64,000 nucleotides of DNA from Pseudoalteromonas ulvae UL12 (GTDB taxonomy: Bacteria; Pseudomonadota; Gammaproteobacteria; Enterobacterales; Alteromonadaceae), in the NCBI RefSeq assembly GCF_014925405.1, contig NZ_AQHJ01000023.1:434001-498000 (forward strand), given 5' to 3'. Both the position numbers and the translations under genes were made by a program. Under the pieces are notes generated by a model, which saw only the letters and a program-made list of their open reading frames with translations, had not been told where the DNA came from and did no database searches. Of this stretch, positions 2,961 through 23,718 are shown in pieces (the first letter of the stretch is position 1; each line of letters begins with the position of its first letter).

Positions 2961-5303
2961 ATGCTAAAAAAGACACCTTATCGTAACTCGATTATTTTTA
3001 GACTTACGATGATTAATATTGTCGTGGTTATGGTTATTTTATCGGCCATAACAGTTGCTTTTATCAATGAAGCAAAACGACGCGTCAACAGCCAAACTGA
3101 AGCGTTTTTAAAACACCAATATCAAGCAACCGCTTTAGCATTACAAGGCAACTCCTTGACCAGTCAGGCAATGCGCGTATTGAGTTCGATTGCTACGAAC
3201 GAGCATATTCTTCGCGCTACGCTAATTGGAGGGCAAGATAAGCGCATAATTGCAGACAACCAGCACCAATATCAACGAGCGTCTATTGATGATGCTTTCA
3301 AACCAAATACAGCATCGTTTATCACTCAAGCAATTAATCAATCAAATAGCCATGCAAAAAAAATTGATGGCGAACACTTTTTTTACATTGCTAAAATGAT
3401 GTTAATTGACCCAGAAATCAAACGCCAGCGCCCTTATTTCATGTTTATAAAATATGATTTAAGTACTGAACAGCAGACTGTTTTTTATGAGTTAAGTGGT
3501 TATTTAATCATCGTGCTGTGTGGTTTTTTCATTATATTTTTTGTGACCTACCTCACTCAAAAGCGATATTTTTTCTCACCTTTAACCCAGCTCAGTAACG
3601 ATATTTCCAAACGTTTACAATTAAAAGATCGCACTGATGAATTTGGCGTGTTTATCCAAGCTTATAATCATGGCCTCAATACGCAACATGCCCAAGAACA
3701 AGAGCTGGCTGAGTCTCGACGCTATATCGATACTATCACTCATGAAATTCCTATTTTATTGGCTTACTTTAACAACACACGCTGCTTAGAGTTCATTAAT
3801 AAACGGTTCTTATCTTGGATTGCAAAATCAACCGAAGACGTCACGGATTTAACCATAGATCAATTATTGCATCATCATGTCCGTACTGACTTAGAACCCT
3901 TTTATTTACGCGCATTATCAGGATCGCAATGTTTTTTTGACTGTGAATTCATCGATAAAGATTTAGAGTTTAAATATGTAAAATGCACATTCATTCCAGA
4001 TCAAGACAGCGATAACACTGTTAAAGGATTTTTCATTTGCATTGAAGATATTACTGAAATTCAACAAAGCAACGATCGAATTACTAACTATCTACATGAA
4101 TTAGAAAATACCAATACAGAACTAGAAGAAGCCCGCTTTGCTGCGGAGTCATCCGAAAAAGCAAAGTCAGAGTTTTTAGCCTGTATGAGCCATGAAATTC
4201 GAACCCCGATGAACGGTATTTTAGGTTTACTAGGGATTGTTCAACGCCAAGCGACACTGAGCCCTGAGCACTTTGATAATATTTCCTTAGCACTTAAAAG
4301 TGCGGACTCTTTAATGAATATCATTAATAGTATTTTAGACTTTTCAAAAATTGAATCAGGTAAATTAGAGTTAGAGCACACCCCCTTTCACCTCAAAAAA
4401 GAACTCAATTCCATCCTTGCTTTATTAAGTCCGCAAGCCAACGAAAAGCAATTGAGTTTTGAGCAAACCATTGACCCTTCATGTGATTGTTTTGTAAAAG
4501 GAGACCCAACTCGATTACGTCAAGTCATCATTAATTTATTAAGCAACGCTGTAAAATTCACTCATAAAGGGAGCGTTGTTTTTCAAGCACAATTAAATCA
4601 AGAAGTTGAGCCAGCTTATTTACATTGCCGCATTACTGATTCAGGTATTGGCATGACACAACATCAACTCAGTAAATTATTTCAACCTTTTAGCCAAGCA
4701 GATAGTTCTACTACTCGCCAATATGGTGGTACAGGGCTTGGTTTATCCATTGTGAAACGACTTTGTGAATTAATGGGCGGAGGAATTACAGCCATTAGTG
4801 AGCCAGAACAAGGCAGTTGTTTTGAATTTCAAATTGCGTTACCACTCAGTGAAGAGCAACCTCAACACACTCAAGAAGAACAAACATATCGCCAAAATCA
4901 TTCAGAACATAAAATTTTGTTAGTCGAAGATAATAAAGTCAATCAGATTGTCGCCACAAAAATGCTCAGTGAGCTCTCTCTTGAAGTAGATATTGCTCAA
5001 AATGGGCTTGAGGCATTAGACATACTCAAACAATGCGATGTTCATCATCCTTACACATTAATTTTGATGGACTGCCAAATGCCTGAACTTGACGGCTATC
5101 AAACAACTGAACTCATTCGTGCAGGTGATGTCGGCGCCTATTACAGCGCCATCCCAATAATCGCAATGACCGCTAATGCAATGAAAGGCGACAAAGAGGC
5201 GTGCCTCGCTTGCGGGATGAATGATTACATCAGCAAACCACTCCAACTAGATGATATTTATCAAGTCTTATCACTTTGGTTATCCAAACTGACCAAAAAG
5301 TAA
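2961..5303 (+). CDS. Membrane hybrid sensor histidine kinase (HAMP-like, PAS, HisKA, HATPase, REC)
   Basis: 780 residues. There is a membrane helix at about 12-32, a periplasmic region to about 178, a second helix at about 178-200, a HAMP-like linker, and a PAS-like region at about 255-375. HisKA follows with the H-box MSHEIRTP (His411), then an HATPase domain with N-box INLLSNAVKF and G-boxes DSGIGM and GGTGLGLSI, and a C-terminal receiver with phospho-acceptor Asp704 in LMDCQMPELDG. All key catalytic residues are present, so it should autophosphorylate and pass phosphate to its own receiver. An external HPt protein would be needed and none is adjacent. It is the second gene of an operon with the binding lipoprotein. 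Confidence 0.9.
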   Translation: MLKKTPYRNSIIFRLTMINIVVVMVILSAITVAFINEAKRRVNSQTEAFLKHQYQATALALQGNSLTSQAMRVLSSIATNEHILRATLIGGQDKRIIADNQHQYQRASIDDAFKPNTASFITQAINQSNSHAKKIDGEHFFYIAKMMLIDPEIKRQRPYFMFIKYDLSTEQQTVFYELSGYLIIVLCGFFIIFFVTYLTQKRYFFSPLTQLSNDISKRLQLKDRTDEFGVFIQAYNHGLNTQHAQEQELAESRRYIDTITHEIPILLAYFNNTRCLEFINKRFLSWIAKSTEDVTDLTIDQLLHHHVRTDLEPFYLRALSGSQCFFDCEFIDKDLEFKYVKCTFIPDQDSDNTVKGFFICIEDITEIQQSNDRITNYLHELENTNTELEEARFAAESSEKAKSEFLACMSHEIRTPMNGILGLLGIVQRQATLSPEHFDNISLALKSADSLMNIINSILDFSKIESGKLELEHTPFHLKKELNSILALLSPQANEKQLSFEQTIDPSCDCFVKGDPTRLRQVIINLLSNAVKFTHKGSVVFQAQLNQEVEPAYLHCRITDSGIGMTQHQLSKLFQPFSQADSSTTRQYGGTGLGLSIVKRLCELMGGGITAISEPEQGSCFEFQIALPLSEEQPQHTQEEQTYRQNHSEHKILLVEDNKVNQIVATKMLSELSLEVDIAQNGLEALDILKQCDVHHPYTLILMDCQMPELDGYQTTELIRAGDVGAYYSAIPIIAMTANAMKGDKEACLACGMNDYISKPLQLDDIYQVLSLWLSKLTKK

Positions 5304-14745: not shown

Positions 14746-15843
14746 TTAACCAACATGTTTTTTAAATTGTGCCATCACCTCCTCTAAGTCATGCACTATT
14801 TTAAAGTGCTCAAGCGCCATTTCTTCAAATTTCATCAATGTCGAGTCAGTGACTTCTGTCAGGCTTTTTTCTTCATCATCTGTTAATTGCAATTTATTAA
14901 ATACTTCAAAAAACAACCATGATTGCTGGTTTTGAATATGGTTTGTTTCTTTGTTAAATTCATGCATCCTGAACTTAACTAAATCAAGCGCCTCCGAGAC
15001 TTTTGAAAAATATAACTGCTTGACCATATTTTGATTAATACTGAGTAAATGATGCTCTGCACACTCAACATACGCGGTGAGGACATCAATCAGTTGCCCT
15101 TGTTTAACCTCATCATCTGGGATGTTTTTAATTAACATGCTGATGTTTTCTGTTTGAAAAAAATAGCGCCGGCCAATTTTTAAAATTCTGTCTCCTTTTT
15201 GCATCGCCAAGCACATCACTTCTTGCTCTAATCCTGTGGCAGCATCTTCAGGGCTGTCCCAAATAGTTAGCCCCTTATTTTCGTTGATAGCAATGGCCGC
15301 CAGTAAATTTAATTCACTAAGGTAATGAAAAATGGCGTTTAAAAAACCACTAATACTATGAGTGGTTAAACAAGAACGAATTGCCCGTGCGGTGTGCCCC
15401 CAAACAAAAGAATCCGACATGGCCACATACACAGCTTCAGTTGAGGCTTGCTCTGCTTGGGCTATTTGCCGATATTTAGCCCTAAATTTTAGTGCTTATT
15501 CTAATTTAAGATTCAACATTGTTGGCGCACATTGGGTTTTATCAATCCAGTCTATGGCGCCGCTATTAAAGGCGGCCATTTTTTTATCTAAATCTTTAGA
15601 TGCGCTTAAAAAAATAACGATGGGTCGCTCTGCTCTAGATTTCAGTTGTTCAGAAATAATCACCCCTTCACCATCGGGCAAATGGTAATCTAACAACACC
15701 ACATCAAAATGTGACTTATCAAGTCGCGCTTGGCCTTGCGCAATACTATGGGCCACGTCAGTCTGATATCCTTGACCTAATGATAAAACCAATAAATCAC
15801 ACACACTCTCATCATCTTCAACAATCAGCACTGACACAGTCAT
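14746..15843 (-). pseudogene. Response regulator (receiver plus helical output domain) interrupted by one in-frame TAA
   Basis: Two reading stretches lie in the same frame. Bases 15499-15843 encode a full receiver domain of 115 residues (LIVEDDES start, phospho-acceptor Asp in VVLLDYHLPDGEG, Ser in FLSAS, Lys in WIDKTQ). A TAA at 15496-15498 follows, and the frame then stays open for 249 more codons to 14746. The 21 codons after the stop encode a charged helical linker and then a domain that starts VYVAMSDSFVWGHTARAI, including a motif like that of longer response regulators with an effector-like helical region. No frameshift is needed to join the halves. A restart at GTG 15432 or ATG 15420 is possible, but neither has a ribosome site. 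A nonsense mutation or sequencing error is most likely. The function of the output domain is unknown. Confidence 0.65.
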
Positions 15844-17233: not shown

Positions 17234-17572
17234 TTAAATCGCTTCTTCGTCGAGTTCACCAGTACGGATCCGCACAATTTGATCTAACTCATAAACAAAA
17301 ATTTTGCCGTCACCTATTTTTCCGGTTGAAGCGACTTTTGTAATCGCCTCCACAATGCGTTCGACATTTTCACTGCGTGTAGCAATTTCAAGTTTGATCT
17401 TTGGAATAAAATCCACTTGGTATTCAGCACCACGATACAACTCTGTATGACCTCTTTGGCGGCCAAATCCTTTGACATCAACTACAGTCATCCCTTCAAC
17501 ACCTAAATCAGAGAGCGCTTCTCGTACATCATCTAATTTAAATGGTTTTATAATTGCACTAATCATTTTCAT
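17234..17572 (-). CDS. glnK: Nitrogen regulatory PII protein GlnK
   Basis: 112 residues, the standard PII length. The N-terminus is [20 protein letters not shown], the T-loop carries the uridylylation Tyr51 in RGAEYQVDF, and the second signature [14 protein letters not shown] binds ATP and 2-oxoglutarate. It senses nitrogen and carbon status and blocks AmtB when ammonium is ample. It is the first gene of the glnK-amtB operon and lies 49 bases downstream of a sigma-54-type promoter with NtrC-like boxes further up, consistent with induction under nitrogen limitation. Confidence 0.95.
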
Positions 17573-17620
17573 AGTGGACCCTTCAATATCATTATTATTA
17601 ATCTGTTGATATTTTGTTAA

Positions 17621-17636
17621 TCCAACCTTTGTGCCA
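17621..17636 (-). promoter_or_regulatory. Sigma-54 promoter of glnK-amtB
   Basis: On the minus strand the sequence is TGGCACAAAGGTTGGA. The -24 element TGGCAC is exact, the spacing of five is correct, and the -12 element TTGGA differs from TTGCA by one base. It lies 49 bases before the glnK ATG. Confidence 0.75.
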
Positions 17637-17698
17637 CTCTGTAAAAAGCAATTAATTCAGTACGATAGAAATATTTATTAACAATTAAATACTTTACT

Positions 17699-17746
17699 TG
17701 CACCACTTGTGTGCAAAAATAAAACCCAGCACACACTATTGGTGCA
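17699..17746. promoter_or_regulatory. Pair of NtrC-like enhancer boxes
   Basis: 17699-17715 reads TGCACC-ACTTG-TGTGCA, which matches TGCACC-N5-GGTGCA in 11 of 12 arm positions. 17730-17746 has an exact GGTGCA right arm and a poor left arm (CACACA). The centres are 31 bases apart, about three helical turns, and lie roughly 75-120 bases upstream of the sigma-54 promoter, the usual enhancer distance. Confidence 0.65.
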
Positions 17747-17791
17747 TTTGACACAGCGCGTTTTAATTCCCGATTTAGTTACAGATTGATT

Positions 17792-17813
17792 TATTGTGAT
17801 TTTTATCACAATA
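17792..17813. promoter_or_regulatory. CRP-like binding site upstream of the LytS-like array
   Basis: TATTGTGAT-N4-ATCACAATA is a perfect dyad with nine-base arms and contains TGTGA-N6-TCACA, the canonical CRP core. Its centre is about 87 bases before the ATG at 17890. It lacks the FNR form TTGAT-N4-ATCAA. I cannot place a confident -10 element between it and the gene. Confidence 0.6.
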
Positions 17814-17889
17814 TAGGGTCTTTATTGCCCGTGGTTTGAGTCGGTTTTTCTGGGGTAACCTTTTTAATTTACAAGGTAGTTTTTAACCA

Positions 17890-18972
17890 ATGACATATTG
17901 GATCCTCCAAGCCATTGCTGCTTTAGCGCTATTTAGCATTCAGTTTGCTTTTGCGCATGAACGCGAATTCAGTATTTACCCAGACTGGGTTGTATTGACG
18001 TCCATCATTTGTAATTCCGCATTACTTGTTCTGCTCAGCCACTTTATTATTCGTGCCCCGCAAAAGTATTTACAAAAAGATAAAGCATATAAAAAGCAGA
18101 TTTTCTTCACGTTAGTTGTCACAGCGCTCGCGGCAGCCTTTATCGATACCACGATTGCTTCTATGATTGATGCCACAATCAAAGAATCATTAAATGGTCA
18201 GGTTTATCAATTTAGAAATGGCAGTGAATTCACCCAAGAACTAAATGTGCTAGGTTTGCATAAAGAGACATGGGATATGTCGCGATTAATTGTCATCCCC
18301 CTGATGATGTTTGCTCTTTATTTTTTGTGGGGTCTTTTTTATCTATGCCTCACCAGCCTCAGAAATAGACTGCAAATCAAACAAAAGGTCAAAGAAGGGC
18401 AACTGGCGCTTTTAATGAGCCAACTCAATCCTCACTTTTTGTTTAACTCGATGAATAGCATTCGCGGCATGATTTTCGAAAATAAAGAAATCGCCAAAGA
18501 ATTAGTCGATAAGCTCACCGAACTCTTTCGTTACAACTTGAGTTCAAAACAACAACCGACTATCTCACTCAAAGAAGAACTCAAAGTCTGTGAGTTTTAC
18601 CTTGATATTGAACATACTCGTCTCGAAGAACGTTTGTTGATTGAAATTAATGTGCCAGATGAACTCTATCATTATTCCATCCCAACAATGGGAGTGCTTA
18701 CTTTGCTTGAAAATGCCATTAAACATGGCATCGCTCCGCGAATTGAACAAAGCTTGTTGCGCATTACTGCCACAGAGCAAGACAAAACCTGGCAGCTTGA
18801 TGTCTCCAATCCTCTTTACCTTGGTGAGTTTAAAGCCAGCGGCACTGGAACGGGCTTATCCAACCTCAAGCAACGAATGACATTGATGTACCAAGATGAG
18901 GCAAGCATTACAACTAAAGAGGTCGATAACCACTTTATTGCATCACTCATTTTACCGAAAAAGAAGCATTAA
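17890..18972 (+). CDS. LytS-like membrane sensor histidine kinase (intact catalytic residues)
   Basis: 360 residues. Hydrophobic helices lie at about 4-22, 34-54, 72-95 and 133-155. The cytoplasmic part has a His_kinase domain with the LytS-type H-box LNPHFLFNSMNSIRGMIF (His182), then TELFRYNL, and EFYLDIEHTRLEERL. The HATPase part has N-box LLENAIKHG (Asn275) and G-box GTGTGLSNLKQRM. All residues needed for autophosphorylation are present. It is the first of three consecutive LytS-like genes followed by a LytTR response regulator. The next ATG lies one base after its stop, so translation is probably coupled. A CRP-like box lies upstream. Confidence 0.9.
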   Translation: MTYWILQAIAALALFSIQFAFAHEREFSIYPDWVVLTSIICNSALLVLLSHFIIRAPQKYLQKDKAYKKQIFFTLVVTALAAAFIDTTIASMIDATIKESLNGQVYQFRNGSEFTQELNVLGLHKETWDMSRLIVIPLMMFALYFLWGLFYLCLTSLRNRLQIKQKVKEGQLALLMSQLNPHFLFNSMNSIRGMIFENKEIAKELVDKLTELFRYNLSSKQQPTISLKEELKVCEFYLDIEHTRLEERLLIEINVPDELYHYSIPTMGVLTLLENAIKHGIAPRIEQSLLRITATEQDKTWQLDVSNPLYLGEFKASGTGTGLSNLKQRMTLMYQDEASITTKEVDNHFIASLILPKKKH

Positions 18973-18973
18973 T

Positions 18974-20071
18974 ATGAATTGGCAATACCTTACACACACA
19001 GGCAAAAAATATTGGCAATACTTAGGTATCTCTCTCGTGATAGGGGTTGGCTACTCCTTTTACACCATTTTGACTATTTTAGAAGAACTCGCCAGTAGAC
19101 CTTACCTTGTGACACAAGTATTAGTTAGCTATACAGGCTTTTTCATTGCTTTTCATATTGTTGCTCGTGGTATGTACAAAGTGAATGAACATAAAATCAT
19201 GTCGATTAAAAAGCAGTTACTTTGGATTATCTGCATTTCAATCGTGGCTCCGCTCCCTTGGTTGTTGAGTGACTTTCTCTTTTTTCAACTCGTCCCCCGC
19301 ACCTATACTTTTGATGACTTGATGAAGATTGTGTATCAGCTTCCAACCACTAATTGGTCTTATCAAATACTGACTATCGTGATGAGCTATTGGGGAAACT
19401 TTATCATTTACCTGATTGTTTATGTCATGATTGTATCGGGGCGCAACTACCACAAATTAAAAGATATTAACGAAAAACAAGAACTTAAAATTCTTATAAA
19501 TCAAATCAATCCTGATTTTCTTTACAATACAATGGATGTTATTAAGCGCACCATTGATATTGATGCTGAGCAAGCAGCCGATGTCGTCACCCAAGCCTCA
19601 GAGTTATTTAGGTATAACCTCACCGCCAGTAAAAATAATGCCGCGACAATAGAACAAGAACTTGAAAGCCTCACGAACTATCTCAATTTGCTGAAATTGC
19701 AAAATCGAGCACCCCAAGATATTCATATCGAATTGGCCGATCAACATTTTATTGAGTCACTGCCGACTATGACCCTTATTTTTATGGTGTCGCATATTTT
19801 AAAAAATGCACTGCACCCCAACCATTCATTATTGATAAAAGGGCAGCAACAAGGCGAGAAATACCTACTGACTTTGCTGCACACATCAACAAAAAAGCGC
19901 ATTGTCGATGCTGATTATTTTAGAAACATCAAACACAGGCTCGCGTTTATGTTTCATGACAAAGCGCAACTCACTTCAATTAAAGATAAAAATAGCCATA
20001 AGTTAATGTTATCTTTGCCATTAAAGGAACAAACAACCACTCATCCTGATATTTTACCTTCTGTCATTTAA
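18974..20071 (+). CDS. LytS-like membrane protein lacking the phospho-acceptor His
   Basis: 365 residues with hydrophobic helices at about 18-38, 48-68, 84-110 and 135-158. The H-box region aligns clearly with the upstream paralogue, but NPHFLFN has become NPDFLYN, so His is replaced by Asp181. The N-box keeps Asn (HILKNALHPN), yet the Glu before it is Lys. The glycine-rich G-box is absent, with only RNIKHRLAFMF remaining. It should be unable to autophosphorylate. A structural or heterodimer role with its neighbours is possible. The ATG at 18974 is one base after the upstream stop; an in-frame start at 18896 would overlap the upstream gene and is rejected. Confidence 0.8.
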   Translation: MNWQYLTHTGKKYWQYLGISLVIGVGYSFYTILTILEELASRPYLVTQVLVSYTGFFIAFHIVARGMYKVNEHKIMSIKKQLLWIICISIVAPLPWLLSDFLFFQLVPRTYTFDDLMKIVYQLPTTNWSYQILTIVMSYWGNFIIYLIVYVMIVSGRNYHKLKDINEKQELKILINQINPDFLYNTMDVIKRTIDIDAEQAADVVTQASELFRYNLTASKNNAATIEQELESLTNYLNLLKLQNRAPQDIHIELADQHFIESLPTMTLIFMVSHILKNALHPNHSLLIKGQQQGEKYLLTLLHTSTKKRIVDADYFRNIKHRLAFMFHDKAQLTSIKDKNSHKLMLSLPLKEQTTTHPDILPSVI

Positions 20072-20156
20072 CAGTAGGCATTATGGATGTTAACTTTTAC
20101 ACTTATTGTTACGCCTTAATTAATGCGATTCTACATTACTTTTAAAAAGCGACTTT

Positions 20157-20711
20157 ATGTTTGATACCAATACCGAATCAGCGCTCAACCCACACTTCAT
20201 CTTCAATAGTATGAACGCGATTCGCTATACAATTTTTGAAGATCAAGAAAAAGCCAGCGAACTGCTCAGCGAGCTGGCACAATTGCTACGCTACAAACTC
20301 GCAGATGGCAAAGCCCACACCGATGTGCTTGAAGAGCTCACCTATGTTAAACAGTATTTAAATCTTGAGGCCTTGCGCCTTGAAGAGCGACTCATCAGCA
20401 CTGTCACGTTCAATAACGTGAGTAAACACAACCCTCTGAGCCACTCATTATTGTTGCCGCTGGTAGAAAAAATTTGCCATGAAAAAGATATTTATAGCGT
20501 GCAAGAAAACACGCTCACGATTGTGTGCAGCGAACACAATAAATGCGTCACTTTCACCCTTGAATTAACCCAAAAACCAGGGGTAAAACCTGGTGAAATC
20601 AATTTTGATACTGAACTTAATCTAATTAAATCCAGCGTAGCAACTACAATTGCACAAACACTGACAAAAAATAGCTATAAAATGGAGTTAACGCTTAATT
20701 ATGACCATTAA
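20157..20711 (+). CDS. Soluble minimal LytS-like protein with His but without the ATP-binding Asn
   Basis: 184 residues and no membrane segment. It begins almost directly at the H-box (NPHFIFNSMNAIRYTIFE, His13), followed by LAQLLRYKLADG and KQYLNLEALRLEERL, close to the first paralogue. In the ATPase half the N-box is VEKICHEKD, with Asn replaced by Lys, and no G-box is visible. It could accept phosphate but not bind ATP in the normal way, the reverse of the preceding gene. Its last 11 bases overlap the start of the LytTR regulator gene. The 85 bases before it contain no terminator, so it belongs to the same operon. Confidence 0.8.
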   Translation: MFDTNTESALNPHFIFNSMNAIRYTIFEDQEKASELLSELAQLLRYKLADGKAHTDVLEELTYVKQYLNLEALRLEERLISTVTFNNVSKHNPLSHSLLLPLVEKICHEKDIYSVQENTLTIVCSEHNKCVTFTLELTQKPGVKPGEINFDTELNLIKSSVATTIAQTLTKNSYKMELTLNYDH

Positions 20712-21423
20712 AGTGATCATCGTAGATGATGAGCGCCTTGCCCGAAACGAACTCAAACGTTTATTGGCCAAGCATAGCCAAGTGGAAATCATCGACGAAG
20801 CCAAAAACGCTGAAGAAGCAAAAGAAAAAATAGCCGAACATAAACCTGATGCGATATTCCTCGACATCCATATGCCGGGTGCAACAGGGTTAGAGTTAGC
20901 AGAATCACTCGGTGACGATGTGAATATCATTTTTTGCACGGCCTACGATCAATTTGCCGTTGATGCCTTTTCACTCAACGCCATGGATTACCTAGTCAAA
21001 CCCGTCAATCCTGAGCGCCTTGCTGACAGCTTAGTTAAATTAGAAAAACGTTTAGCACAATCAAAAGAAAAATCGTCATTGCCAGACGATCATAAATTGA
21101 TGGTTAAATATGGCGAGAAAATGCGCATCATTCAACTCAATGAAATCATTCGCTTTGAATCAATTGGCAACCATGCAGCCATTTACACCCCACATGGTAA
21201 AGCGTACTTGCATAGTTCACTCAATAAAATCGAAAAGAAACTCGATGAAAGCCATTATTTTAGAGCGAGCCGCTCTGATATTATCCGTCTTGATGCTATT
21301 TCAAGCATGGAGCAATCGATTGGTTATGGCTTAACTGCGACCTTATCAAATAACCAAACGGTTGAAATTTCGCGTCGCCAAGCAACAAAACTCAAACAAC
21401 TACTTGAGTTTACCCAGCTCTAA
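20701..21423 (+). CDS. LytTR-family response regulator (REC-LytTR)
   Basis: 240 residues. The receiver has an intact acidic pair (IIVDDERLARNELKRLL), phospho-acceptor Asp55 in AIFLDIHMPG, Thr in FCTAYDQFAVDAF, and Lys in YLVKPVNPERL. The LytTR DNA-binding domain spans about 135-240 with HKLMVKYGEKMRIIQLNEIIRFES, then YFRASRSDIIRLDAISSM, and a final VEISRRQATKLKQLL. It is the natural output of the three LytS-like proteins encoded just upstream, and its start overlaps the third of them by 11 bases. Target genes cannot be read from the sequence. Confidence 0.93.
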   Translation: MTIKVIIVDDERLARNELKRLLAKHSQVEIIDEAKNAEEAKEKIAEHKPDAIFLDIHMPGATGLELAESLGDDVNIIFCTAYDQFAVDAFSLNAMDYLVKPVNPERLADSLVKLEKRLAQSKEKSSLPDDHKLMVKYGEKMRIIQLNEIIRFESIGNHAAIYTPHGKAYLHSSLNKIEKKLDESHYFRASRSDIIRLDAISSMEQSIGYGLTATLSNNQTVEISRRQATKLKQLLEFTQL

Positions 21424-21437
21424 ACACTCCTAAAATC

Positions 21438-21478
21438 CGCAATGCATCACACCGGCTCGATGCATTGCGATTTATTTT
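21438..21478 (+). terminator. Terminator of the LytS/LytTR operon, overlapping the end of the convergent gene
   Basis: CGCAATGCATC at 21438-21448 pairs with GATGCATTGCG at 21459-21469, an 11-base perfect stem, followed by ATTTATTTT. The left arm includes the last bases of the convergent diguanylate cyclase stop codon. Confidence 0.65.
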
Positions 21479-22712
21479 CAAACACCGCAACTTGATTTCG
21501 ACCTTGCCCTTTAGCATCATACAATGCGATATCGGCATGTTGCATGGCTGTTTCAAGAGACGGCCCTTCAATCCCACAAATTCCAATACTGACAGACACT
21601 GCAATTGGCTGCGAAGCAAACACAAACAAATGATTTGACACATAAAACCTAAACTCATCCATCAACTCTACAGCTTGGCTTAGATCACTCACATTCAACA
21701 TTAACGCAAATTCTTCACCACCAATTCGGGCGATTAAACACTCTGGAAAATGATGCTGTAACAAAGAAGATAATAACACCAACACTTCATCACCGGCTTG
21801 GTGGCCATAGGTATCATTGATTTGCTTAAAGTAATCAATGTCTAACATCGCCAATACTGACGTTTGTTCTGGTTTACAGTGTTGTATTGATTGCTGTGCT
21901 TGTTGATAAAAATAACGGCGATTATACAAACTCGTTAAATAATCCCGATTCGCAGCATCTTTAATTTGCCCAATCATATTGAGTTGTTCCATAGTCTGCA
22001 TCACACGACAATGAAACTCTTCAGGCATAAAAGGCTTAATCAAAAAGTCATTCGCGCCGTATTTAATAAACTTTGCCGATAAACTTTGGCTGCCCGAACC
22101 TGAGATGCCGATAATAGCTAACTCGTCTCGTCCACGGCGGTGACGAATTGCTTTAGCTAACTCAAATCCATCCATTTTTGGCATCGCATAATCGGTCAGC
22201 AACAATTTGATTGAATTATCTGAACTGAGCATTTGCAAAGCCTGTTCGCCATCAGCAGCTTCCTCAACTTGATACAACAGTTGCTCTAACATCTGCTTCA
22301 TTAAATTACGACTCGTTTTTGAGTCATCAGCAACAAGCACCTTACTGCCTTGATTTCGCAGCAACTGCGCAAGCAGTTTTATTGCATAAAGGTAAGAATC
22401 TCGATTATCTTTGAGTACGTAGTCAATCACACCCATTTCAATCATTTGCAGGCGTTTATATTCATCAATCGCAGACGTCAGCACCACGGTAGGGATCGCT
22501 GACTTCATCATCAATTTGACCACTTCCCCGTTCGGGGCATCGGGTAACGTTAAGTCAACTAATGCCACCGTATAACGATGCTTTTTAATCAATGTTGCAG
22601 CTTCACGCAGCGACCAAGCAAAATCAACGTCAATATCTAACCACTGAGCGGCTAAATGTCTTAATACTTGTTGAACCATTTTGCTATCTTCAACAATTAA
22701 TACTCGTTGCAT
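21447..22712 (-). CDS. Diguanylate cyclase response regulator (REC-REC-GGDEF)
   Basis: 421 residues. The first receiver (1-120) has LIVEDSKMVQQVL and Asp in VALVDLTLPDAP. The second (about 125-245) has VLVADDSKTSRNLM and Asp in LLLTDYAMPKMDG, with Lys in FLIKPF. The GGDEF domain begins DYLTSLYNRRYFYQQA, includes DIDYFKQINDTYGHQAGDEVL, and has the active-site motif GGEEF, so it should make c-di-GMP. I see no obvious RxxD inhibitory site upstream of the motif. The ATG at 22712 has GGAG upstream; the frame stays open for 70 more codons but with no family similarity. No partner kinase is adjacent. It is divergent from the reductase gene. Confidence 0.92.
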   Translation of the reverse strand: MQRVLIVEDSKMVQQVLRHLAAQWLDIDVDFAWSLREAATLIKKHRYTVALVDLTLPDAPNGEVVKLMMKSAIPTVVLTSAIDEYKRLQMIEMGVIDYVLKDNRDSYLYAIKLLAQLLRNQGSKVLVADDSKTSRNLMKQMLEQLLYQVEEAADGEQALQMLSSDNSIKLLLTDYAMPKMDGFELAKAIRHRRGRDELAIIGISGSGSQSLSAKFIKYGANDFLIKPFMPEEFHCRVMQTMEQLNMIGQIKDAANRDYLTSLYNRRYFYQQAQQSIQHCKPEQTSVLAMLDIDYFKQINDTYGHQAGDEVLVLLSSLLQHHFPECLIARIGGEEFALMLNVSDLSQAVELMDEFRFYVSNHLFVFASQPIAVSVSIGICGIEGPSLETAMQHADIALYDAKGQGRNQVAVFENKSQCIEPV

Positions 22713-22833
22713 GTGCCTACTCCGTAAAGCTAAAATCAAAAACTTTAGCCAGCATAACGCTTTATTATTACAATCGATACGAGATAAAAGCAGAATGTAA
22801 CAATTTGTTGCTAATTTAACAACTGAGAAACGT

Positions 22834-23718
22834 ATGAAAAAAATAATGATTACCGGTGCAAGCGGCCTGTTAGGGCGTGCATTAATGTCGACATTTACGC
22901 CAAATTTTACCGTTTTAGGCACGGCCTTTTCTCGAACATCACCGCCCTTGCATAAACTTGACCTAACCGACTTTACCGCCCTTGAAGCCTTTATTACTGA
23001 ACATCAACCCGACTACCTAATTCATGCGGCAGCAGAGCGTAAACCTGAAGTGTGCCAAGCGCAGCCCGAGTTCACACAACAACTCAATGTTTCGCTGCCT
23101 CAAAAATTAGCCCTGCTGTGTCATCAATATCGTATTGAGCTGTTTTTTATCAGTACCGACTATGTGTTTGATGGACTTAACCCTCCATACGCTGAAAACG
23201 CCGACACTCACCCACTCAACGACTATGGTCTGTCTAAACAACAGGCCGAGCAAGCGGTGTTAAGCTATCCAGCGCACAATGTTATTCGCGTGCCAGTGCT
23301 CTATGGCCAAGTGGAGTTTATTGAAGAATCTGCACTCACTATCACGTGGGCACAATTGCAGCAAAATAAGCAACCTGCCATGGACAATTGGGCGATACGC
23401 TACCCAACCCATGTAAGTGACATTGCAGCCACCTTACACGATATGCTAACTAAACTAACACCGTCTGAACGTGGTGGGGTTTTTCATATCTCAGATACGA
23501 CAGCTCACACTAAATACGCGCTTGCTTGTGCATTAGCGGATGCCTTTGGAGACGATAAAACGCGTATTATTGCCCAAGACAGCGCCGTTGGTCAGGCTGC
23601 AAGACCAAAAAACTGTCAATTACAAGACACCCGTTTAACCCAAAAAGGAATTTTATATCAACGAGATGCAACTCAAGGTCTCATTGATGCTGTTCGGCCC
23701 TTTGTAGCACACAGCTAA
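22834..23718 (+). CDS. RmlD/MAT2B-like NAD(P)-binding reductase
   Basis: 294 residues, extended short-chain dehydrogenase fold. The dinucleotide loop is ITGASGLLGRALM, the Ser-Asp pair FISTDYVFDG, and the catalytic Tyr-Lys YGLSKQQAEQ. The segments AAAERKPEVCQAQPE and PVLYGQVEFIEESALT are closer to the MAT2B (methionine adenosyltransferase beta subunit) branch than to the rhamnose enzyme, by recall of family features. No sugar-nucleotide genes are nearby, which argues against a role in dTDP-rhamnose synthesis. The true substrate is unknown. The ORF starts 121 bases from the divergent diguanylate cyclase. Confidence 0.75.
   Translation: MKKIMITGASGLLGRALMSTFTPNFTVLGTAFSRTSPPLHKLDLTDFTALEAFITEHQPDYLIHAAAERKPEVCQAQPEFTQQLNVSLPQKLALLCHQYRIELFFISTDYVFDGLNPPYAENADTHPLNDYGLSKQQAEQAVLSYPAHNVIRVPVLYGQVEFIEESALTITWAQLQQNKQPAMDNWAIRYPTHVSDIAATLHDMLTKLTPSERGGVFHISDTTAHTKYALACALADAFGDDKTRIIAQDSAVGQAARPKNCQLQDTRLTQKGILYQRDATQGLIDAVRPFVAHS

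Follow-up and report, generated by a model that had tools for sequence, protein, structure and literature searches.

Introduction

Histidine kinases of the PF06580 (LytS) type paired with response regulators that consist of a receiver and a LytTR domain are known from BtsS/BtsR, YpdA/YpdB and FimS(AlgZ)/AlgR. In FimS(AlgZ)/AlgR a single complete kinase serves the regulator, and BtsS/BtsR and YpdA/YpdB have likewise been described as pairs with one complete kinase per regulator. Here we analyse a locus that shares the kinase and regulator types of these systems and differs in its part list: four same-strand genes at positions 17890-21423 of a 64-kb stretch of Pseudoalteromonas ulvae UL12 DNA (contig NZ_AQHJ01000023.1, positions 434,001 to 498,000; hereinafter the window, in the coordinates of which all positions are given) encode three LytS-type proteins, denoted k1, k2 and k3 in gene order, and one LytTR regulator. 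Unlike BtsS/BtsR or YpdA/YpdB, the locus combines one complete kinase with two catalytically incomplete paralogues.

Sensor-kinase heterodimers have been described as rarely reported. The FasB/FasC/FasA system of group A Streptococcus includes two sensor-kinase-like proteins per regulator, for which a heterodimer was detected by the two-hybrid method; according to its description, FasB gives the kinase domain, H246 of FasC is required and the kinase domain of FasC is dispensable, and FasC has been proposed to be a pseudokinase that supplies the His. No published description of the Pseudoalteromonas locus turned up among the papers listed in searches of the open-access literature, including searches that combined Pseudoalteromonas with LytTR, and a search for pseudokinase, histidine kinase and LytTR together gave no paper.

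One complete kinase and two incomplete paralogues

Are there three histidine kinases at this locus? All three proteins score well above the cut-off of the Pfam His_kinase model PF06580 (84.5, 64.4 and 70.4 bits for k1, k2 and k3, respectively, vs 25.2), and the fourth protein matches Response_reg (87.6 bits) and LytTR (67.8 bits); its best match in NCBIfam is the BtsR model, below the cut-off of that model (155.6 vs 246). The HATPase_c model reaches only 13.1 bits in k1, with a cut-off of 26.4, and has no listed match in either k2 or k3; because it falls short even in k1, the argument has to rest on motif residues rather than on this model.

In k1, H182, N275 and T319-G322 are invariant in the eight aligned sequences from the orthologous loci described below; the ninth k1, from genome G016, was omitted both from the k1 alignment and from the seed alignment used for residue counts. 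The phosphoacceptor His of PF06580, embedded in the NPHF motif, is present in k1 (8/8) and k3 (9/9) and is replaced in k2 by Asp (2/9) or Glu (7/9), so that k2 cannot be classed as an active kinase. At the N-box Asn position, k1 has Asn in 8/8 and k3 has Lys (five of nine) or Tyr (four of nine); k3 also lacks the G-box, with a single glycine, G146, still aligned there, and has neither the N-terminal membrane part nor the helix before the His. The receiver Asp55 of the regulator is kept in 9/9. The residues singled out in an earlier, sequence-only reading of this DNA were all confirmed: His182, Asn275 and the G-box of k1, Asp181 at the His position and the absent G-box of k2, as well as His13 and Lys105, at the Asn position, of k3, which that reading rightly took to be soluble.

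The state of the N-box Asn in k2 is a more delicate matter. In the MAFFT alignment this position holds His (5/9) or Phe (4/9); a profile alignment places Asn278 of the window copy there, a register that gives Asn in five of nine and Thr or Ser in four of nine sequences. In the structural model of k2, the helix expected to hold the N-box spans residues 267-277, from which we infer that the MAFFT register is to be favoured and that this Asn has probably been lost too. With the G-box and probably the Asn gone, the loss in k2 goes beyond the His. The complementarity that the sequence-only reading perceived between the losses of k2 and k3 is therefore not supported, and k2 is an unlikely ATP-side partner of k3, a part that only k1 seems to fit. 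Judging by these motifs, k1 appears to be the sole ATP-using member of the trio.

How unusual are such losses? A scan of named genomes yielded, among its best 80 loci, one orthologous locus (that of Pseudoalteromonas sp. P1-9, excluded from the comparison) and 79 others that hold 80 LytS-type kinases, all of at least 259 residues. All 80 of these kinases have the N-box Asn, and hence the losses in the trio are more than chance; the His is also present in 80/80, but this is so by construction because the scan patterns contained it.

The three proteins differ in architecture as well. A simple hydropathy scan detects four hydrophobic segments each in window k1 and k2, in a like layout, and none in window k3; the orthologues of k1 and k2 show three to five, and two of the nine k3 sequences reach the threshold, within the folded domain. 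In profile comparisons, k1 aligns with k2 over nearly the whole length, membrane part included, and k3 aligns with the last half of k1. The reading that we favour, with middling confidence, is that the locus encodes one two-component system in which duplication has divided the sensor kinase into three parts with specialised roles, with k3 acting as a phosphate carrier or a dephosphorylation arm.

Conservation of the locus and purifying selection

The four-gene locus is found in nine of 108 Pseudoalteromonas genomes, always in the order k1-k2-k3-regulator beside glnK-amtB (gene names assigned from sequence); the locus that the scan of named genomes located in Pseudoalteromonas sp. P1-9 seems to be one of the nine. 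Orthologues of k3 (E <= 1e-20) are present in nine of the 108 genomes and strong orthologues of k2 (34-100% identity) in the same nine; 22 genomes exceeded the threshold of the k2 search, the other 13 giving matches of 23-28% identity. Neither k2 nor k3 has an orthologue without the rest of the locus among the 108 genomes, and the identity of the regulators to the window copy ranges from 85 to 100% over the nine loci.

Beyond the genus, the k3 profile gave, outside the window genome, only four matches among 394 sampled genomes of the order (E <= 1e-22) and only five among 369 sampled genomes of the class (E <= 1e-20), all to frames larger than k3, with 370 to 518 codons; the k2 profile, run on a sample of 388 genomes of the order, matched outside the window genome only frames of at least 324 codons (18 matches). 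Among 15 fetched loci of the order, the only tandem kinases were the two from the window genome, with the qualification that the text pattern used was loose and recovered no kinase at all in six of the 15.

Could k2 and k3 simply be unimportant, decaying duplicates, with k1 and the regulator making up the system? The long stem branches of both proteins in the tree discussed below would fit this explanation, as would the k1 gene of G016, in which a 59-base tandem duplication breaks the frame just after the G-box (locus L035, G016:C21, about 3213-4415), so that damage to the locus may occur; this is a draft contig, and the duplication may be either genuine or an artefact of assembly. Against decay stand the k2 and k3 frames, which are open in all nine genomes (the stops counted in two k2 matches are the gene's own end, past which the match runs), and the gene order and the losses, which are the same across three diverged clades. 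The sequence-only reading had proposed to examine homologous loci for conservation of the losses and would have taken relatives with intact residues in all copies as a sign of recent decay; the losses proved to be fixed in all nine orthologous loci, with Asp or Glu at the His position of k2 and Lys or Tyr at the Asn position of k3 throughout. Moreover, k2 and k3 are under purifying selection. The ratios of nonsynonymous to synonymous substitution rates (dN/dS) obtained with the NG86 method for seven genome pairs are 0.04-0.13 for k1 (four pairs computable), 0.05-0.12 for k2 (five), 0.05-0.12 for k3 (five) and 0.005-0.03 for the regulator (six of seven), the non-computable pairs being saturated and one k1 value using the broken G016 frame as is; the YN00 values, available for fewer pairs, run somewhat higher, up to 0.20 for k1, 0.16 for k2 and 0.13 for k3. 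With losses conserved, frames open and dN/dS not above about 0.12 in k2 and k3 where NG86 could be computed, we reject recent decay, and the decay explanation as a whole comes close to being refuted and appears highly improbable. Since the losses are fixed in 9/9 loci and NG86 dN/dS, where computable, is 0.05-0.12 for both k2 and k3, the trio is a maintained design, as would be expected of a sensor in three parts and not of decaying genes.

The three proteins are not conserved evenly along their length. The identity between clades, calculated for eight of the nine genomes in three clades (G016 was omitted altogether), amounts to 0.96 in k1, 0.92 in k3 and 0.65 in k2 for the 18-residue H-box, and to 0.53, 0.38 and 0.34, respectively, for the CA part. 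When 38 residues around the His are compared, k1 and k3 share 23-25 and k1 and k2 share 15-17 in the three genomes tested. By this pattern, k3 appears to hold its phosphoacceptor helix in the manner of a working kinase while the remainder drifts. In k2 there is no phosphoacceptor, and yet an acidic residue is retained at the former His site.

Predicted folds

Structures were predicted for k3 and for the cytoplasmic part of k2. The alignments built for k3 and k2 have 46 and 43 rows and comprise, respectively, the nine k3 or the nine k2 sequences together with seven of the eight intact k1, five kinases from the single-kinase loci described below, and 25 or 22 of 36 non-redundant outside kinases. 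The AlphaFold model of k3, based on the 46 rows, has a predicted local distance difference test score (pLDDT) of 87.0; its first helix starts at residue 12, and helical DHp-like elements are followed by a CA-like sandwich. In a Foldseek search, the GanS kinase domain comes first (E 7.7e-08, template modelling score 0.63), followed by other kinases; by sequence, GanS is found at 2.1e-40 with the 46-row profile and at 1.8e-09 with k3 alone. The k2 model has a lower pLDDT (80.2), and its first Foldseek matches are DesK and GanS; 4qpk, labelled 'Bacterial Phosphotransferase', ranks 14th for k2 and is not among the 50 matches listed for k3. Thus, both k2 and k3 are predicted to keep a DHp/CA-like fold.

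This prediction bears on another possible explanation, namely, that k2 and k3 are non-enzymatic adaptors that bind k1 or the regulator, in the way of RetS or DivL, with His13 of k3 as a docking residue instead of a phosphate carrier. The kinase regions of DivL and RetS are indeed among the 50 structural matches listed for k2, which in the model keeps a DHp-like fold while lacking the phosphoacceptor. Docking, however, does not obviously call for what is seen in k3, where His13 and its 18-residue surround are conserved nearly at the level of the active kinase (0.92 vs 0.96) and the rest drifts, and we consider the adaptor explanation unlikely.

A possible mechanism

Under the favoured reading of a sensor split into three parts, k1 would be the only complete kinase, combining ATP binding with the phosphoacceptor His. 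k2, which would neither accept phosphate nor, very probably, bind ATP, could be a sensory or allosteric partner that tunes k1, probably within mixed dimers with it. k3 would be a soluble remnant in which nothing but the phosphoacceptor helix is still functional; its His13 would most likely be phosphorylated by the ATPase domain of k1 and would exchange phosphate with Asp55 of the LytTR regulator, which would make k3 a mobile carrier or a dephosphorylation arm. That k1 phosphorylates k3 within a mixed complex seems plausible because the H-box of k3 is nearly as conserved as that of k1 and because of the FasB/FasC precedent.

Might k3 instead be a dedicated phosphatase or phosphate sink? The phosphorylated regulator would then either pass its phosphate to His13 or undergo hydrolysis through Asn17, k2 would bias k1 to the phosphatase state, and the trio would set a threshold. 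This alternative is possible if rather doubtful. In its favour, Asn17 (His+4) is invariant in 9/9 k3 sequences, with the same place in k2 varying (Asn in two, Asp in four, Ala in three); k3 has no ATP motifs; and it has been proposed that PhyP, a membrane-anchored, kinase-like protein whose ATPase domain is degenerate, acts as a His-dependent phosphatase on PhyR. The Asn at His+4 is, however, invariant in all 46 rows of the k3 alignment, ordinary LytS-type kinases included, and so does not distinguish a carrier from a phosphatase. Judging by sequence, k3 might either add phosphate to the regulator or remove it.

Several points weigh against the three-part sensor with k3 as a carrier or dephosphorylation arm. 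The biochemistry of all members of the trio is inferred, as are the dimer partners, the direction of phosphate flow and the effect on the output. k1 is complete and could conceivably do the whole job alone. Lacking the helix before the His, k3 may be limited in its ability to dimerise with k1, and the part of its DHp region that does not belong to the H-box is less conserved (0.58) than in k1 (0.74) or k2 (0.63). Neither Spo0B nor ChpT nor DivL is among the 50 Foldseek matches listed for k3, and the receivers that could be used in a relay through k3 are encoded near only six of the nine loci each, with one contig stopping just after the regulator.

We would put forward only tentatively the more specific scheme of a LytS machine of three polypeptides that arose within one genus, in which the membrane ATPase/kinase k1 and the sensory pseudokinase k2, with its obligatory acidic residue, would be coupled to the LytTR regulator by k3, a soluble His carrier free of the membrane. 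In any case, with both types of loss fixed side by side and nine species open to comparison, the break-up of a homodimeric sensor into subunits becomes directly testable, and the locus also allows a test of what an acidic residue does when it occupies the site of the phosphoacceptor. For annotation there is a warning: 'three histidine kinases' at this locus amount to one kinase.

Origin of the trio

In a quick phylogenetic tree, k1, k2 and k3 each form a single supported group. The stems are long in k2 (3.2 changes per column) and k3 (3.7) and short in k1 (0.61); the tree does not point to a particular kinase as the parent of k2 and k3. In 12 genomes of the genus, a regulator 59-64% identical to that of the window is encoded with a single kinase and among other neighbours (loci L052-L063), often 3' of a putative outer-membrane beta-barrel gene. 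The kinase frame is uninterrupted in 11 of these 12 loci and split over two frames in L063 (G089), and all nine single kinases that were aligned have both His and Asn. This arrangement of single kinase and regulator is likely to be the older one. In L052, L055 and L059, the kinase and regulator genes overlap by 11 bases, the same overlap as between k3 and the regulator in the window, which suggests that k3 took over the place of the original kinase.

Also noted were regulators of lower identity in G118 and G064 (45-46%) and a LytTR regulator match of 40% identity with one TAA within the matched stretch (L066, G034:C55:3412-4128); their neighbouring kinases are included in the tree.

Gene layout and neighbourhood

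The features of the locus and its surroundings are collected in Table 1. The ATG of k2 lies one base past the end of k1 (its length is counted from that ATG), k3 and the regulator overlap by 11 bases, and k2 and k3 are 85 bases apart. The sequence-only reading, which placed all four genes in one operon, was correct on the first two spacings and left the third unmentioned; this spacer measures 85-133 bases across the nine orthologous loci. Because terminator and Rfam scans found neither a terminator-like site nor an Rfam family in the spacer of the window, it is plausible that the four genes share one transcript. A small peptide encoded in the spacer was considered and rejected: three-frame translations, inspected by eye, show a 20-codon frame in the window, and no frame of comparable length was seen in any of the eight remaining spacers.

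Table 1. Genes and other features of the LytS-LytTR locus and its surroundings in the window
Feature	Position	Strand	Remarks
k1, membrane LytS-type histidine kinase, 360 aa	17890..18972	+	His182, Asn275, G-box GTGTG (aa 318-322) intact
k2, membrane LytS-type pseudokinase, 365 aa	18974..20071	+	Asp181 for His; no G-box; Asn doubtful
k2-k3 spacer, 85 bases	20072..20156	+	no terminator-like site, no Rfam family
k3, soluble degenerate LytS-type protein, 184 aa	20157..20711	+	His13 kept, Lys105 for Asn, no G-box
LytTR response regulator, 240 aa	20701..21423	+	receiver Asp55 (FLDIHMP)
TGCAC-N7-GTGCA inverted repeat, glnK/k1 intergenic region	17699..17715	.	one match in 64 kb
glnK/k1 intergenic region	17570..17890		TGGCAC...TTGG-like element; GCAC/GTGC repeats
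Unnamed 228-aa protein	14746..15432	-	beyond amtB
Stand-alone receiver	15496..15843	-	beyond amtB
Receiver-receiver-GGDEF-like protein	21447..22922	-	domains by eye

The intergenic region between glnK and k1 contains a TGGCAC...TTGG-like element facing glnK together with GCAC/GTGC repeats, which resemble sigma-54 and NtrC elements and are aligned in all nine genomes; the kinase operon may for this reason be under nitrogen control as well. The inverted repeat in this region, a putative NtrC-like site, is statistically weak, with 0.14 matches expected in 64 kb and at least one found in 14 of 100 shuffles.

An S10-peptidase-like gene (named from sequence) follows downstream in eight of the nine loci; in the ninth, the contig stops once the regulator gene has ended. 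Beyond amtB are the genes for the stand-alone receiver and the unnamed protein, and the gene for the receiver-receiver-GGDEF-like protein converges on the regulator gene; each of the three has counterparts near six of the nine trio loci, the window counted. A local phosphorelay via the two receiver-containing neighbours seems unlikely, given that their counterparts are found at only six of nine loci each; k3 might have relay partners elsewhere in the genome.

Comparison with known systems

How does the trio compare with degenerate kinases described elsewhere? PhyT, Spo0B and ChpT have been described as degenerate kinases that carry phosphate (PMC5898713). k3 shares its part list with Spo0B, ChpT and PhyT/PhyP, that is, a kinase-derived phospho-His protein with a degenerate ATPase part (PMC5898713), and, as far as its motifs and its model go, it would be of the Spo0B/ChpT type in combining a phospho-His helix with a degenerate ATPase fold, with no specific match to either of these folds among the 50 Foldseek matches listed. 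Spo0B, ChpT and PhyT/PhyP act in relays between receivers or as a proposed phosphatase, whereas here there is no second receiver beside all nine loci; set against these proteins, k3 belongs to PF06580 by sequence.

k2 resembles DivL, RetS and a ChrS variant in having a kinase fold without normal catalysis, which in these proteins acts on another kinase: DivL has been described as a pseudokinase, and heterodimers with HrrS have been described for the ChrS pseudokinase variant of Corynebacterium. DivL, RetS and ChrS belong to kinase families other than that of k2, and, to our knowledge, none of them is encoded beside a soluble member that keeps only the His. In the CheA3/CheA4 pair of Rhodobacter sphaeroides, the phosphoacceptor and the ATPase likewise reside on separate polypeptides; this pair belongs to the chemotaxis CheA family and includes no complete kinase. 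By analogy, the best precedent for the present locus would be FasB/FasC. There, two kinase-like proteins are involved; here, there are three, of which the His-only member is soluble and is joined by a member that has lost the His.

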